The notes below the pieces were generated by a model. It saw nothing but the letters and a program-made list of their open reading frames with translations, searched no databases and was not told the origin of the DNA. A stretch of 6,336 nucleotides of DNA, taken from positions 1-6,336 of the forward strand of contig JAJDCT010000452.1 in assembly GCA_029260695.1 (NCBI GenBank). Direction: 5' to 3'. Positions 1 to 5,837 of this stretch are shown piece after piece. The translations under genes were made by a program, and so were the position numbers. Source of the stretch: Phycisphaeraceae bacterium. GTDB lineage: Bacteria > Planctomycetota > Phycisphaerae > Phycisphaerales > Phycisphaeraceae. Position 1 is the first letter of the stretch. Each line of letters opens with the position of its first letter.

Positions 1-1
1 C

Positions 2-307
2 GGCCGAGTCTTCCAGCGTGCTGAGCGTAATGTTGTCCGTCGCCCAGAAGCCCGGTGACAGCTCATCGAACCCAAAAGAACGGACCTGAACATTAAACCC
101 GTTATTCACCACCGCCGCATCGAGGAAGCCATCGCCATCAAAGTCGATATCGAACGCCCCCGATGAGACGACCACATCGGGATCAACTTGGGTAAAGACA
201 ACCTCAGCCTGCGTTTGCGAACCGAAAGAAAAAGCCCCCAAGCCTGCCGCAGCAGAATACAAGGCAAGCTGGCGGGATCGGATGACATCGATCTGGCTAC
301 GTTTCAT
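2..307 (-). CDS. Secreted protein with Asp-rich Ca-binding-like loop, N-terminal 102 residues only
   Basis: This is the start of a gene that runs off the left edge, so only the first 102 residues are visible. The ATG (307-305) has a GGAG nine bases upstream on the minus strand. Residues 1-34 look like an export signal: a basic start (MKRSQIDVIRSR), a small-residue hydrophobic stretch (LALYSAAAGLGAFSFG) and a possible cleavage after TQA34. The mature part begins VVFTQVDPDVVV. At residues 53-63 it has DIDFDGDGFLD, which fits the DxDxDG..D calcium-binding loop found in dockerin, EF-hand-like and FG-GAP/VCBS surface proteins. Many planctomycete exported proteins of this build end in a PEP-CTERM sorting signal, but the C-terminus is outside the window. 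Export is fairly certain; the function is unknown. Confidence 0.8.
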   Translation of the reverse strand, partial: MKRSQIDVIRSRQLALYSAAAGLGAFSFGSQTQAEVVFTQVDPDVVVSSGAFDIDFDGDGFLDAAVVNNGFNVQVRSFGFDELSPGFWATDNITLSTLEDSA

Positions 308-388
308 GCTCCCACACTCCGAGACAAATGCCCATAAGAAAGCGGAGTCGGCGGCATGCCAATCCACTTAGCATAGATGATTACTGTG

Positions 389-417
389 ATCCTACCCTGA
401 AATAGGGGCCCAGTCAA
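389..417 (-). promoter_or_regulatory. Candidate promoter of the leftward secreted-protein gene
   Basis: On the minus strand there is a TTGACT (417-412), a 17-base spacer and TAGGAT (394-389). They match the sigma-70 consensus at 5 of 6 and 4 of 6 positions. The -35 box sits in the left arm of the near-palindrome at 413-448. This is pattern matching only. Confidence 0.4.
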
Positions 418-448
418 TATTATTTCGTCCTATGAAATAATTATTGAC
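413..448. repeat. AT-rich near-palindrome in the divergent intergenic region
   Basis: GTCAATATTATTTC (413-426) and GAAATAATTATTGAC (434-448) are inverted copies that differ by a single inserted base, around a 7-base centre (GTCCTAT). The arms sit in a strikingly AT-rich block within GC-rich DNA, between two divergent genes. Each arm ends in TTGAC read outward, which looks like a -35 box on both strands. It could be a regulator operator or two promoters back to back sharing an AT-rich upstream element. No T-tract follows on either strand, so a terminator is unlikely. Confidence 0.6.
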
Positions 449-472
449 CCCGCCTACTCACTTTGGTAGCCT
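444..472 (+). promoter_or_regulatory. Candidate promoter of the rightward tandem gene pair
   Basis: TTGACC (444-449) is followed after 17 bases by TAGCCT (467-472), a poor -10 match. The -35 lies in the right arm of the near-palindrome. A start near 479 would give a leader of about 40 bases before the GTG at 518. The weak -10 suggests that an activator or another sigma factor may be needed. Confidence 0.3.
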
Positions 473-517
473 TCCTACTCGAAATAGCACGCATCTCACC
501 ACAATCTGGAGATCACT

Positions 518-1549
518 GTGACCGATGACACAGCCCGCTGCGCTGCCCTGTTATTGACGATTCTGGCAGTACTCCTGCCCTCGACCACCTTGGCAGACAC
601 CGCCCCAGCCACTACACAAGCAAACGAAGCTAAGCCCGCAAACGCCGCCCCGATCAATGGCAAGAGGGTCTGGCACGGACGTTATGTGAGCGACCCCGAT
701 CAGCAAGACGAGTTGCTAGGGTTCTGTCAGAGCGAGGGAATCAACCTGCTGCTGCTTCAGGTCCACTACCGCTCGGATAGCCAACCCGTTGTCATCAATC
801 ATCCCCAACGATATGTGGAGCTTATCGGTAAGGCCGCCGACCTTGGCATCCGTGTCGAAGCGCTTGACGGCGAGAAGTCGATGGCGCTTTCGCAAAACCA
901 GGAGCACACCCTCGCGGTTCTCCGCGCGATACTTGATCTCAACGCGACCATGCCCAAAGGCAAACGCTTCGTCGGCCTCCACTACGACATCGAACCCTAC
1001 CTCCTTGAAGACTGGGCGGACCCCGCACGACGTACCCAGATCATGTCTGACCTCCTGGACTACTACACCAAAGCACGCGAGTTGATCCGCGAAAGCGACC
1101 CGGACATGACTTTGGCGTGTGACATCCCGTTCTGGTTCGATACACCCACAAGTGAAGACGGCCTGCCGCTGGCGCTCGAATTCGCCGGCCAAACCAAGCC
1201 CATCCAGCAGCACATCCAGGACCTCTGTGACTACGTCGGCATCATGTCTTACCGCACCACCGCCGTCGGTCCGAATTCGATCACCGAGATCGTAGAAAAT
1301 GAAGTCGCCTACGCCCAGTCCATCGGTAAGACCGTCTGCCCCGCGGTCGAGACAGCAGCGTACCCCCCGGTCCCGAGCATCTCGTTTCACGGCCAAACAG
1401 CGCAACAATACAGTGGCCAGTTCGACCTTGCTTGGAACACCCTGGCAGATCGGCCCGGGTTCGGCGGGATGCTGATCCACTGCTATCCAAATGTACGCGA
1501 GTTGCTTGAATCGGGCTCCGAATCCGACCAGGACACACCCACCAATTGA
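518..1549 (+). CDS. Exported TIM-barrel protein, GH18-like putative glycoside hydrolase (copy A)
   Basis: A 343-residue exported protein. The GTG start is set by GGAG at 508-511, six bases upstream. Residues 1-26 are a signal peptide (LLLTILAVLLPSTTLA, cleavage after TLA26), followed by a Thr/Ala-rich linker to about residue 45. Eight short hydrophobic strands follow, as in a (beta/alpha)8 barrel: about 50-54, 75-84, 110-117, 151-160, 198-206, 238-245, 271-278 and 314-322. Strand 4, FVGLHYDIEP, aligns with the GH18 motif F-D-G-x-D-x-D-x-E but keeps only the final DxE (D157, E159). Strand 6, DYVGIMSYR, matches the GH18 MxY motif (Y245). E278 closes strand 7. In GH18, DxE supplies the acid catalyst and the assisting Asp. 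The fold and GH-like function are inferred; the substrate is unknown. Copy B follows after 94 bases and is probably co-transcribed. Confidence 0.85.
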   Translation: MTDDTARCAALLLTILAVLLPSTTLADTAPATTQANEAKPANAAPINGKRVWHGRYVSDPDQQDELLGFCQSEGINLLLLQVHYRSDSQPVVINHPQRYVELIGKAADLGIRVEALDGEKSMALSQNQEHTLAVLRAILDLNATMPKGKRFVGLHYDIEPYLLEDWADPARRTQIMSDLLDYYTKARELIRESDPDMTLACDIPFWFDTPTSEDGLPLALEFAGQTKPIQQHIQDLCDYVGIMSYRTTAVGPNSITEIVENEVAYAQSIGKTVCPAVETAAYPPVPSISFHGQTAQQYSGQFDLAWNTLADRPGFGGMLIHCYPNVRELLESGSESDQDTPTN

Positions 1550-1631
1550 TGTGATGCCCGCTCTGTCCCCGCCCAACTAAAACCGAATACACCCGCACAT
1601 AAACCGCCTGCGGAAATGGCAGATCCCATTC

Positions 1632-1636
1632 AAGGA
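1632..1636 (+). promoter_or_regulatory. RBS that decides the start of copy B
   Basis: AAGGA lies 4 bases from a GTG (1641) and 7 bases from the adjacent ATG (1644). The spacing favours ATG 1644. The choice changes the protein by one Met only. Confidence 0.6.
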
Positions 1637-1643
1637 CACCGTG

Positions 1644-2672
1644 ATGCCTACCAAACTGCTCTGGACCTGTGCCTTACCCGTCTGCGCGTGTTTACTTTTG
1701 TCAGCGTGCCTCAGAGCGGCTGATAGTCCCACCACCGCATCGGGCACAGTTCCGGGAAACCAGGTCCAAGCCCGCCCCCCCCAACCCATCAAGGGGCTAT
1801 GGGTCTGGCAGGATAAACATATCACCGACGCACAAGGCCAGGACGAGATGCTCGCATTCTGTCAGCGCCATGGGATCAACCTGATACTCGTGCAGGTCCA
1901 CTACGCCGAGGACAGCAACCCCCCGGCCTTCTCCAACCCTCAGGGTTATGTCGCCTTGATCGCCAAGGCGTCCGACCTGGGCATACGGGTCGAGGCGTTG
2001 GACGGTAGCGCGGCGATGGCTATGGCCGAGAACCAGGAACGCACACTCGCCGTGCTCTCAATGATCCTGGAACTGAACAAGACCATGCCAGCGGGCAAAC
2101 GTTTCTCCGGGGTCCACTACGACATCGAGCCCCATGCCATGCCTGAATTCGGTGACCCGGCGCATCGCACCCAGATCATGGCAGACCTCCTGGGCTACTA
2201 CGCCAAAGCAGCGGACATCATCCACCAAGCCGACCCCGACATGACACTGTCCTGTGACATCCCCGCCTGGTACGAAGTGAACACCACCGAGGATGGCTTA
2301 CCCCTCACAATAGAGTTCGCCGGTCAGACCAAGCCCCTCCAACAGCACATCCAGGACCTCTGCGACTACGTCGGCATCATGGCCTACAGCAGGCAAGCCA
2401 TCGGGCCTGACTCGATCACCGACAAGACCCAAACGGAGCTGCAGTATGCTGCGCAGATCGGCAAAGTCGTCTGCTCCGCGATCGAAACCGTCGAGTTGCA
2501 GGAATATCAGGCGATCTCGTTCCACGGCGAGACCCCCGAAGTGTTCAATGAGCAGTTCGAGCTTGCGTGGAACACGATGGCCGACAAGCCCGGGTTTGGC
2601 GGGATGCTGATCCATTACTACGGCAGCGCCCGAGAATTACTCGAACCCAAGTCCGTCACGACAGGGCCCTGA
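1644..2672 (+). CDS. Exported TIM-barrel protein, GH18-like putative glycoside hydrolase (copy B, probable lipoprotein)
   Basis: A 342-residue paralogue of the gene just upstream. By hand count 176 of 287 aligned residues are identical without a gap, from PIKGLWVW to RELLE. All landmarks of copy A are kept: the strand-4 HYDIEP (D160, E162), strand-6 DYVGIMAY (Y248), strand-7 Glu (E281), SFHG (H294) and GGMLIH (H324). The N-terminus differs. After MPTKLLWTCALPVCACL comes LLSAC (Cys22), which fits a lipobox (L-S-A-C), so this copy may be membrane-anchored. A signal peptidase I site after RAA is the alternative. The entry motif GLWVWQDKHITD is closer to what I would expect of this family than copy A's KRVWHGRYVSD, so copy B may be nearer the ancestral form. 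Hydrolase activity is inferred. Confidence 0.85.
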   Translation: MPTKLLWTCALPVCACLLLSACLRAADSPTTASGTVPGNQVQARPPQPIKGLWVWQDKHITDAQGQDEMLAFCQRHGINLILVQVHYAEDSNPPAFSNPQGYVALIAKASDLGIRVEALDGSAAMAMAENQERTLAVLSMILELNKTMPAGKRFSGVHYDIEPHAMPEFGDPAHRTQIMADLLGYYAKAADIIHQADPDMTLSCDIPAWYEVNTTEDGLPLTIEFAGQTKPLQQHIQDLCDYVGIMAYSRQAIGPDSITDKTQTELQYAAQIGKVVCSAIETVELQEYQAISFHGETPEVFNEQFELAWNTMADKPGFGGMLIHYYGSARELLEPKSVTTGP

Positions 2673-3687: not shown

Positions 3688-3761
3688 TCGGGGCGGCCGG
3701 ATTCGAACCGACGACCTTTCGCCCCCCAGACGAACGCTCTACCAAGCTGAGCTACGCCCCG
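3688..3761 (-). tRNA. tRNA-Pro (anticodon GGG)
   Basis: A full cloverleaf can be folded by hand on the minus strand. The acceptor stem is CGGGGCG paired with CGCCCCG, seven Watson-Crick pairs. The D arm is GCTC-AGCTTGGTA-GAGC. The anticodon stem is TTCGT/GCGAA with loop CTGGGGG, giving anticodon GGG and G37, as expected for proline. The T arm is GTCGG-TTCGAAT-CCGGC, and the discriminator base is A. The length is 74 bases. CCA is not encoded and would be added by nucleotidyltransferase. It reads CCC and, by wobble, CCU codons. Confidence 0.97.
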
Positions 3762-3951: not shown

Positions 3952-4761
3952 CTAGACCCTGACCCCCCGGTAGCACACCGCCACCCCGAACGTCAACGGC
4001 TTGATGATCGGGTCGGTGAATCCTACGGCCCGCATCATGTCTAACATGCCGGCACGGTCGGTGAAGGTGTTGACGCTCTTGGGCAGATACTTGTATGCCC
4101 CGCTTTTGTCCCGGGCGATCAGGCTGGCGGTGATCGGCATGACCCGCTCTCGGTAGATCCTGTCGAAGAAGCGGATCACCGGATTCGTCGGCGTGCTGAA
4201 CTCCAACACGATCACACGACCACCGGGCCGAAGCACACGGTAAAACTCGCGCATCGCCGCGGCCGGGTCGGCGACGTTACGGATCCCAAACGCGATGCTG
4301 ACAACATCGCAGCACTGGTCCAGCAACGGCAGGTTCATCGCATCGCCCCGGACCCAGGTGACCCCGGCATACCCGTCATCCGCGACACGATCAGCGGGCA
4401 CCTTACTTTGAGCGATCCTGAGCATGTCGTGGGTAAAGTCGACCCCCGTCACCAGGCAAGCCCCCTGATTCACCTTGTCCAGAGCCTTGCGGAATTGAAT
4501 GGCCAGGTCGCCGGTCCCACAGGCCACGTCTACGACATCTTCGCCGCCTTTGATCCCCGCCATCTTCACCGCCGCGCGGCGCCAGGCCTGGTCTCGCCAC
4601 ATCGAATGCAGCCGGTTGTTCAGGTCGTAGGCGTGTGCGATCGCAGCGAACATCTGCTCGACCCGGCGGGCCTTGTCGGCAGTGGCGTGCGGGTCGGCAC
4701 CCGGGCGCAGGTCGTCATCGGTCCAGGCGGCAGGCTCGTGAGGTTGGGTATCGGTAGGCAT
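3952..4761 (-). CDS. ubiE: UbiE/MenG C-methyltransferase of quinone synthesis
   Basis: A 269-residue SAM-dependent methyltransferase that methylates the ring carbon of demethylmenaquinone or the ubiquinone precursor. Family marks in order are: FAAIAHAYDLNNRLHS (38-53), SAM motif I VVDVACGTGDLA (76-87), motif II region GVDFTHDMLRIA (106-117), GDAMNLP (139-145), SIAFGIRNVAD (155-165, the UbiE signature), LRPGGRVIVLEFSTP (177-191) and YKYLPKSVNTF (223-233). A longer reading frame opens at a TTG (4824), but that codon lies in the loop of a hairpin and has no RBS. The ATG at 4761 gives a protein close to E. coli UbiE in length (251). It has no strong Shine-Dalgarno either. Menaquinone is the likely product if the host is a planctomycete, so menG is the alternative name. 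Confidence 0.95.
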   Translation of the reverse strand: MPTDTQPHEPAAWTDDDLRPGADPHATADKARRVEQMFAAIAHAYDLNNRLHSMWRDQAWRRAAVKMAGIKGGEDVVDVACGTGDLAIQFRKALDKVNQGACLVTGVDFTHDMLRIAQSKVPADRVADDGYAGVTWVRGDAMNLPLLDQCCDVVSIAFGIRNVADPAAAMREFYRVLRPGGRVIVLEFSTPTNPVIRFFDRIYRERVMPITASLIARDKSGAYKYLPKSVNTFTDRAGMLDMMRAVGFTDPIIKPLTFGVAVCYRGVRV

Positions 4762-4805
4762 GAATGGCTGAGATATTAACTCAAACGGCTTTTGGATGGA
4801 CCACG

Positions 4806-4832
4806 CCGGGCCTGAGCGCAGCAAAGGCCCGG
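4806..4832. repeat. 8-bp inverted repeat between the M48 gene and ubiE
   Basis: CCGGGCCT (4806-4813) and AGGCCCGG (4825-4832) can pair around an 11-base loop. There is no T-tract on either side. It may slow or stop transcription from the M48 gene, or be a leader hairpin of ubiE. It would also mask the TTG at 4824. Confidence 0.5.
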
Positions 4833-4931: not shown

Positions 4932-5837
4932 CTAATCGGCCGGCTGGTTCGCAGGATCATGCGCGGCTTTCGGCAGACGCTTGAGCTCATCCAGCACAGT
5001 GTGTTGGTAACGGTCACGGTAGATCCGGTACTTCTGCGGGTCTTTGTAATCGGGGTACTGGTCTTTGATGATCTCGTTGAGGTGTTTGATCCGCGTGTCG
5101 GGATACGGGTGGGTCGCCAGGAACTCCATCCCCGCCCCCCCGCCGCCGCTGGCACGCTTTAAGACCTTCATAACCTGCACCTGCCCGATCGGGTTATAAC
5201 CAAGACGGGTCATGTAGCGCAGACCCAGCTCATCGGATTGGGTCTCCTGATTCCGCCCGTAGCTGAGCATGTAGAGCCCCCCGCCGACGCTCGTACCGAC
5301 CCCCAGGACCTTCATCCAGTCTTCATCGGACTGTTCGCCGGCCACGCCAATCGCTATACCGGCGCCCGTGATAATCATCGCCCGCGTCATCTGCTGGCCG
5401 ATATGCTGAGCCGTGACGTGCCCGACCTCGTGGCCCAACACACCTGCAAGCTGCGCCTCGCTCTTAAGCTCCTCCATCAGCCCGCGTGTGACGAAGACCT
5501 TCCCGCCCGGCAGCGCGAACGCGTTAATCACCGCCGAGTCCACCGCGTGGAACTCCCATTCAAGGTCCGGCCGCTCACTCACCGCCGCCAGCCTGTGTCC
5601 AATATCACTGACGTACGCATGGATCGACGCCGATGGGATATCCCCGCCGTATTGTTTGACGAACTGGGGAGACGCCTCCGCGCCCAACGATTTCTCCCTC
5701 TCGGTGCTGATCCAATTCAACTGGCTCTCACCCGTCGCCGGGTTCGTCGAACAGCCAGCCACCGCCGCCAACAACAGGGCCGCCGGCAGAGCCCAACACT
5801 TCAACAGGGTTTCAAATCTCATAGTCAGTCGCCTCAT
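4932..5837 (-). CDS. M48-family zinc metalloprotease lipoprotein (LoiP/YcaL-like)
   Basis: A 301-residue envelope protease. Residues 1-29 are a lipoprotein signal (LLKCWALPAALLLAAVAGC, lipobox V-A-G-C, Cys29), followed by STNPATG, a frequent beginning in this family. The zinc site is complete: HEVGH at 136-140 (His, Glu catalyst, His) and the third ligand in NQETQSDELG (E198, with D202 of the ExxxD pattern). ATHPYPDTRI (241-250) is the usual M48 substrate-site HP motif. There is no TPR tail, so it is closer to LoiP/YcaL than to BepA. Such proteases degrade misfolded outer-membrane proteins; that role is inferred here. The start could also be the second ATG (5822), which has GAGG nine bases upstream. 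TATATA lies at 5867-5872, but no matching -35 is evident. It is followed by ubiE after 170 bases. Confidence 0.93.
   Translation of the reverse strand: MRRLTMRFETLLKCWALPAALLLAAVAGCSTNPATGESQLNWISTEREKSLGAEASPQFVKQYGGDIPSASIHAYVSDIGHRLAAVSERPDLEWEFHAVDSAVINAFALPGGKVFVTRGLMEELKSEAQLAGVLGHEVGHVTAQHIGQQMTRAMIITGAGIAIGVAGEQSDEDWMKVLGVGTSVGGGLYMLSYGRNQETQSDELGLRYMTRLGYNPIGQVQVMKVLKRASGGGGAGMEFLATHPYPDTRIKHLNEIIKDQYPDYKDPQKYRIYRDRYQHTVLDELKRLPKAAHDPANQPAD

Follow-up and report, generated by a model that had tools for sequence, protein, structure and literature searches.

A diverged gene pair from a Phycisphaeraceae bacterium encodes predicted exported GH18-like barrels, candidate hydrolases of an amino-sugar polysaccharide

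Introduction

Glycosidases of family GH18 use substrate-assisted cleavage, in which matching Asp, Glu and Tyr residues act via an oxazolinium intermediate. The Tyr contacts the acetamido group, and the GH18 motif on strand 6 is MxYD. In the available part of PMC5765458, the PgaB Asp has the same substrate-assisted role; in GHL10 barrels the strand 7 site is Gly and strand 4 bears D-D. Here we describe two adjacent genes on a 6,336-nucleotide stretch of DNA from a Phycisphaeraceae bacterium (the window; contig JAJDCT010000452.1 of assembly GCA_029260695.1, our contig C452). The genome is 2.84 Mb in size and 77% complete. The two genes are a diverged pair encoding predicted exported TIM barrels, for which we infer, with about even confidence, hydrolysis of an N-acetylhexosamine polysaccharide by a GH18-like substrate-assisted mechanism.

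Results

Two adjacent genes encode diverged barrel proteins

The pair lies on the forward strand:

518..1549, + strand: barrel gene copy 1; GTG start, 343 amino acids (aa), hydrophobic N terminus, predicted exported
1641..2672, + strand: barrel gene copy 2; GTG start, 343 aa, hydrophobic N terminus, predicted exported

Export of both copies is predicted from the hydrophobic N-terminal stretch, as judged by eye; the N terminus of copy 2 also has a lipobox-like LSAC, again by eye. A sequence-only reading of this DNA had described adjacent paralogous genes that align over 287 residues without a gap at about 61% identity by hand count, and that count is exact, with 176 of the 287 residues identical (61.3%). 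BLASTP aligned 188 identical residues of 327 (57%) with 3 gap positions (E 6e-143). Because dN is 0.36 and dS is 1.25 by the Nei-Gojobori method, both copies look maintained as proteins. We did not keep a recent duplication as the origin of the pair: in the tree, weakly supported here (83/87), copy 2 falls outside the group that joins copy 1 to its closest relatives. Promoter and terminator scans gave 2 and 3 sites, where shuffled sequence averaged 0.9 and 1.7, and thus no usable signal. Barrel matches were found in 18 of the 51 genomes of the family examined. Within this set, adjacent separate barrel genes are listed only for the window's genome; G246 and G258 carry barrels as fused pairs, and G245 has contig-end fragments only.

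The predicted fold resembles glycosidase-type barrels

AlphaFold predicts copy 2 to be a TIM barrel, with a mean predicted local distance difference test score (pLDDT) of 89. The model has two short extra strands and eight barrel strands, all eight of which had been placed by eye beforehand. Strand 4 spans residues 156-159 and is directly followed by D160-I-E162. Strand 6 (242-246) ends in M246, with Y248 two residues further on, and strand 7 (275-281) ends in E281. Nothing in the strand ends or in the alternation of H158, D160 and E162, an indirect guide, speaks against D160 and E162 facing the barrel center. A TIM barrel is also predicted for a distant Brevibacillus relative, and the AlphaFold models share with GH18 the placement of the putative catalytic residues after strand 4.

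In structure searches the top-ranked neighbors were all glycosidase-type barrels, with GHL10/Cwp19 as the top match. Such a comparison had been proposed along with the sequence-only reading, and it returned no confident match to a non-hydrolase barrel family.

The predicted catalytic residues are near-invariant

In a protein search, 32 relatives were recovered; with the alignment as query there were 151, of which 120 were listed. The working set comprises 131 different proteins, and all counts out of 131 include both window copies. Residue numbers follow P0001 and are one less than those of the window's reading frame; D157 and E159 are in copy 1 numbering. The active-site features are as follows:

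986..994, + strand: copy 1 strand 4 D157-I-E159, predicted catalytic pair (D in 130/131, E in 130/131)
1121..1123, + strand: copy 1 strand 5 Asp, equivalent to D205 (D in 129/131)
1244..1255, + strand: copy 1 strand 6 M-S-Y-R, intact (M and Y in 131/131, S and R in 130/131)
1349..1351, + strand: copy 1 strand 7 Glu, equivalent to E281 (E in 92/131)
2121..2129, + strand: copy 2 strand 4 D160-I-E162, predicted catalytic pair
2256..2258, + strand: copy 2 strand 5 Asp (D205)
2379..2390, + strand: copy 2 strand 6 M-A-Y-S, lacking the Ser and Arg of M-S-Y-R
2484..2486, + strand: copy 2 strand 7 Glu (E281)

H158 and D241 are conserved in all 131 proteins, D160 and E162 in 130 each, D205 in 129, W209 in 127 and D211 in 125. 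On strand 6, M246 and Y248 are found in 131 and S247 and R249 in 130. A wider set of 116 domains keeps D160 in 115, E162 in 112, D205 in 96, D241 in 115, M246 in 107 and R249 in 115, and has Tyr in 87 and Phe in 27 at position 248.

The HYDIEP stretch on strand 4 had been read as keeping the DxE of the GH18 motif DxxDxDxE without its first two Asp residues. This holds for both copies: position 155, the place of the first motif Asp, is Ala, Ser or Val in most proteins, and position 158 is His, which leaves the motif with its final Asp and its Glu. The M-x-Y noted on strand 6 is present in both copies and in 131/131 homologues. The strand 7 Glu, described as conserved, is indeed found in both copies, but it is not universal, position 281 being Glu in 92 proteins, Lys in 36 and Asp in 3.

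The family lies outside the Pfam and NCBIfam models

Neither copy matches any Pfam model at E <= 1. In NCBIfam, both copies fall below all cut-offs, the sole match scoring 12.7 bits against the 321 required. A Pfam scan of 31 relatives (alignment A1) gave no model common to the family and single-member matches only, one of which is a genuine fused GDSL lipase domain. Ten more distant relatives reached no barrel model, and one of them carries S-layer homology (SLH) repeats. Family members occur in Planctomycetota, Verrucomicrobiota, Bacillota, Acidobacteriota-type and Comamonadaceae genomes. Judged by sequence, this is a widespread family absent from both libraries searched, and the earlier suggestion of barrels without a named family is borne out, within Pfam and NCBIfam, for both copies and the relatives. 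At the level of search listings, we found no description of the family, of the clusters of HEAT, GT2 and response regulator genes described below, or of the PDB entry 10yv; nor is the barrel family the subject of the available parts of PMC5765458, PMC5933820 and PMC12419801.

As a separate observation, the barrel of P0027 (574 aa) and of P0076 (544 aa) is fused to a GDSL/SGNH lipase domain, an arrangement that would suit deacetylation or deacylation of a glycan.

We compared a 143-sequence family profile with profiles of 14 GH18, 14 GHL10 and 12 GH114 domains and one PgaB domain, all from genomes of the same phylum. The profile-profile probability was 94.8 for GH18 (E 5.5e-8), 94.0 for GHL10 (E 1.5e-7), 1.0 for PgaB and 0.8 for GH114. 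As yardsticks, GHL10-PgaB gave 85.5, GHL10-GH18 80.2, GH18-GH114 40.2 and GHL10-GH114 39.6. The GH18 alignment places S-G-V-H-Y-D-I-E on D-G-V-D-I-D-W-E and V-G-I-M-A-Y on I-N-V-M-A-Y, in agreement with the GH18-like motifs read by eye on strands 4 and 6. The alignment is that of a run with -mact 0.0; the default run had the same score over 188 columns. Library searches, predicted fold, structural neighbors and this alignment together support the earlier description of GH18-like barrels of an uncharacterized type.

The copy 1 sequence alone had no match in PDB. The family alignments matched 10yv, deposited as 'Putative GH97 from Cellulomonas fimi', at E 9.9e-13 (A1) and, across almost the full domain, at 1.7e-20 (A2; profile positions 26-310 on chain residues 5-273). 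By sequence comparison, 10yv is the only credible solved relative found; it is not among the structure-search matches listed (library to 2026-04-08). The deposited name leaves a 275-residue barrel unexplained, GH97 being a much larger alpha-glycosidase family.

Relatives adjoin genes that make or digest amino sugars

Scanning genome contigs turned up 326 places encoding a relative; 80 of them were kept as loci. Planctomycetota, Verrucomicrobiota and allies account for 26 loci (L005-L028, L031, L048), with a GH20 hexosaminidase gene in 11, a ROK regulator in 12 and both in 10. Among the 21 of these 26 loci with per-genome GH20 counts, 11 have GH20 near the barrel, against 0.20 expected by chance. 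At 9 of these 11 loci GH20 is the next gene after the barrel, on the same strand; L023 of Cerasicoccus maritimus is one locus that combines barrel and GH20. Pfam checks covered four GH20 and two ROK proteins, and by coordinates PF00728 matches lie inside all 11 loci.

A different setting occurs among the other 54 loci. A nucleotide-sugar dehydrogenase, GlmS and GlmU are each found in 12 and all three together in 11, while GT2 is found in 16, a HEAT-repeat protein in 11 and a response-regulator protein in 21; these identities were tested on one or two members each. The clusters of GlmS, GlmU, nucleotide-sugar dehydrogenase and GT2 genes with a barrel are those of Brevibacillus/Paenibacillus. 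In a Geothrix locus (L030), genes for the barrel, a tetratricopeptide repeat (TPR) protein, a sulfatase, YaiO, a response regulator, a HEAT protein and GT2 are consecutive. The barrel of L050 is oriented away from the cluster, and the remaining loci have neither the GH20 nor the GlmS-type setting. Because relatives adjoin genes that make or digest amino sugars, action on amino-sugar polysaccharides is likely.

In the Holophagaceae and Comamonadaceae loci L030 (2510-11059), L036 and L039, the barrel stands with a sulfatase-type protein and a YaiO outer-membrane barrel, in what looks like an undescribed exopolysaccharide cluster.

The two copies are unequal, as are fused pairs elsewhere

Copy 2 departs from the family at 5 of the 29 positions common to at least 95% of the other proteins (W169F, D211E, S247A, R249S and N256D). 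Copy 1 departs at one, W53R. No departure is seen in 79 of the 131 proteins, and only the fragmentary P0025, with 7, exceeds copy 2, which alone among the 131 homologues has S247A and R249S. The copy 1 change is located as follows:

665..667, + strand: copy 1 strand 1 Arg (W53R); Trp in 128/131 and in the 95% identical L003 version

The L003 version stands on contig C211, a second version of the start of this region that is 95% identical to window positions 1-944 over 947 positions; it may reflect a strain mixture, a duplication or an assembly matter. Because the C211 version has Trp, we do not treat the Trp-to-Arg substitution as a fixed change; it reflects variation between strains, a duplicate copy or a difference in assembly.

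Two-barrel proteins number 28 across the 80 loci, and 26 of them are from Bacillota; these 26 are close kin, not 26 events. In all 26, position 281 is Asn in the first domain and Glu in the second, which also has Phe at 248. The fused pairs of L013 and L015 have lost E162 from their first domain. Pairs with unequal active sites thus seem to be a habit of the family, as far as sequence can tell. Copy 1 represents the standard form, and copy 2 likely has another specificity or mainly binds.

Surroundings of the pair

The other features of the window are as follows:

2-367, - strand: upstream gene, runs off the window; a fuller version is on L003
2843..3514, + strand: PilZ-domain gene, directly 3' of the pair and not counted as part of it
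3688-3761: tRNA-Pro, downstream of the pair
3952-4824: UbiE-type methyltransferase, downstream of the pair
4932-5837: M48 peptidase, downstream of the pair

PilZ domains usually read cyclic di-GMP, a signal that often steers exopolysaccharides. The closest synteny is in L006 (Phycisphaeraceae metagenome-assembled genome OFTM41), which has the upstream gene, barrel, PilZ, UbiE and M48 in the window's order and carries one barrel copy, not two. The neighbors of the pair (a PEP-CTERM-type protein, PilZ, tRNA-Pro, UbiE and M48) include no export operon for poly-N-acetylglucosamine (PNAG).

The upstream gene has DxDGDG repeats similar to those of the L004 barrel, and its L003 version has a PEP-CTERM-like tail (PEPTTLALLAAGTGAMGLRRRR). 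L004 (1327-2574 on contig C134 of the window's genome) encodes a fourth, distant barrel with 30% identity, two DxDGDGxxGxxDLN repeats and a PEP-CTERM-like end; its Pfam matches are sub-threshold EF-hand and dockerin matches only.

Discussion

We suggest that the pair would cleave its polysaccharide as follows. The role of acid/base would fall to E162, where strand 4 ends, and D160 would hold the N-acetyl group of the substrate while that group attacks the substrate's own anomeric carbon. Y248 on strand 6 would assist this substrate-assisted cleavage. The subsite would owe its shape to D205 (strand 5) together with the Ser-Tyr-Arg stretch. Conservation and gene neighborhood favor cleaving for copy 1; copy 2 may cleave or bind.

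Several observations weigh against this proposal. The equivalent of the middle Asp of GH18 (D140) is His in 131/131 homologues, and the residue after M-x-Y is Arg (130/131; Ser in copy 2), not the GH18 Asp. The single-sequence PgaB comparison and the GH114 comparison gave nothing (1.0 and 0.8). Inactive GH18-like proteins with the same fold, concanavalin B and xylanase inhibitors, are among the structure matches. Neither GH20 nor GlmS genes neighbor the pair in the window; the sole GH20 of its genome, on contig C389, adjoins a ROK gene and no barrel. The close relatives L005, L006 and L007 also have no adjacent GH20. The substrate is therefore drawn from the wider family and not from the window locus. 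Moreover, the loci are not independent (L016/L017, two Cerasicoccus loci and the Brevibacillus set are close kin), so the counts overstate the independent cases.

The inequality of the copies raises the question of whether these barrels, and copy 2 especially, are glycan binders that guide or hold a polysaccharide and do not cleave it, which we consider unlikely. Copy 2 has more departures from the shared positions than any other protein except one fragment, fused pairs have one changed partner (the lost strand 4 Glu in L013/L015, the strand 7 Asn in the 26 Bacillota pairs), and PgaB-type barrels sit in export operons. However, the strand 4 Asp and Glu are present in both copies and in 130/131 proteins each, and a pure binder would need no acid/base pair kept so strictly.

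It is also improbable, to a similar degree, that the substrate is a polymer of uronic acid, galactosamine or deacetylated hexosamine, hydrolyzed by direct inverting or retaining catalysis via D160, E162 or D205, unaided by an N-acetyl group. The nucleotide-sugar dehydrogenase of the Bacillota clusters makes an acidic sugar likely in their polymer, and D205 is conserved as strongly as the strand 4 pair. According to the available part of PMC5933820, PgaB cuts partly deacetylated PNAG without the second GH18/GH20 carboxylate. On the other hand, the GH20 enzymes encoded next to the barrel in 11/26 loci act on N-acetylhexosamines. Y248 is invariant in the 131 proteins, and in GH18 this Tyr is the acetamido contact.

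Least probable is a glycosidase or lytic transglycosylase acting on cell-wall peptidoglycan, like Cwp19 of GHL10, because the strand 7 Gly and strand 4 D-D of GHL10 (available part of PMC5765458) are mostly Glu and D-x-E here, neither copy matches PF02638, and the neighbors suggest N-acetylhexosamine polymers generally rather than wall recycling.

Returning to substrate-assisted hydrolysis, we put forward one extension tentatively, and doubt it more than we trust it. The family may work as a barrel pair, in neighboring genes or fused: one barrel would cut an amino-sugar polysaccharide, which its altered partner would grip or trim. Bacillota would edit their own polymer, and Planctomycetota and Verrucomicrobiota would eat it. 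The unequal pairs offer a test of the division of labor among duplicated glycosidases. From the two gene settings we predict an enzyme whose target, an amino-sugar exopolysaccharide, is undescribed or unassigned, and which occurs in the genomes of would-be makers and would-be digesters. With no Pfam or NCBIfam model, family members carry the label hypothetical. If the proposal is true, it would help to assign polysaccharide turnover in sea and soil and could provide a new hydrolase of biofilm polymers.

Comparison with known systems sets the family apart from each of them. The GH114/GH191 galactosaminidases (PF03537) are represented in the Foldseek list by the GH191 structure 9ep5 at rank 28; we rejected GH114 membership on the profile probability of 0.8 and the lack of a PF03537 match in either copy. 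The C-terminal domain of PgaB (GH153, GHL13, PF14883) has the same fold, stands high in the structure lists and, like some relatives here, is encoded in an amino-sugar exopolysaccharide cluster. However, our family has no deacetylase domain, and the single-sequence profile probability was 1.0. GH153 membership was rejected, with no PF14883 match in the copies or in the window's genome and no PNAG export operon.

GHL10/Cwp19 (PF02638) is the top structural match, with a profile score of 94.0, but the family has D-x-E rather than D-D, and Glu or another residue instead of the conserved strand 7 Gly, a site whose equivalence was set by the strand end only. GHL10 membership was rejected, with no PF02638 match in the two copies or 31 relatives and with Glu, Lys or Asp in place of that Gly in all 131 proteins. 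10yv keeps D-V-E-P after strand 4 but has V-T-F in place of M-x-Y and Ile in place of Arg. The GH97 of its deposited name has no support from Pfam, neither copy matching any Pfam family at E <= 1.

GH18 membership was likewise rejected, with no PF00704 match at E <= 1 in the two copies and the 31 A1 members, an incomplete DxxDxDxE and no MxYD. The family has Ala or Ser for the first motif Asp, His for the second and Arg for the Asp after M-x-Y; because these other GH18 Asp residues are gone, we do not place it in GH18, although D-x-E and M-x-Y are near-invariant. Even so, GH18 (PF00704) gives the best profile score, and the last Asp and the Glu of DxxDxDxE align with it, as does M-x-Y.
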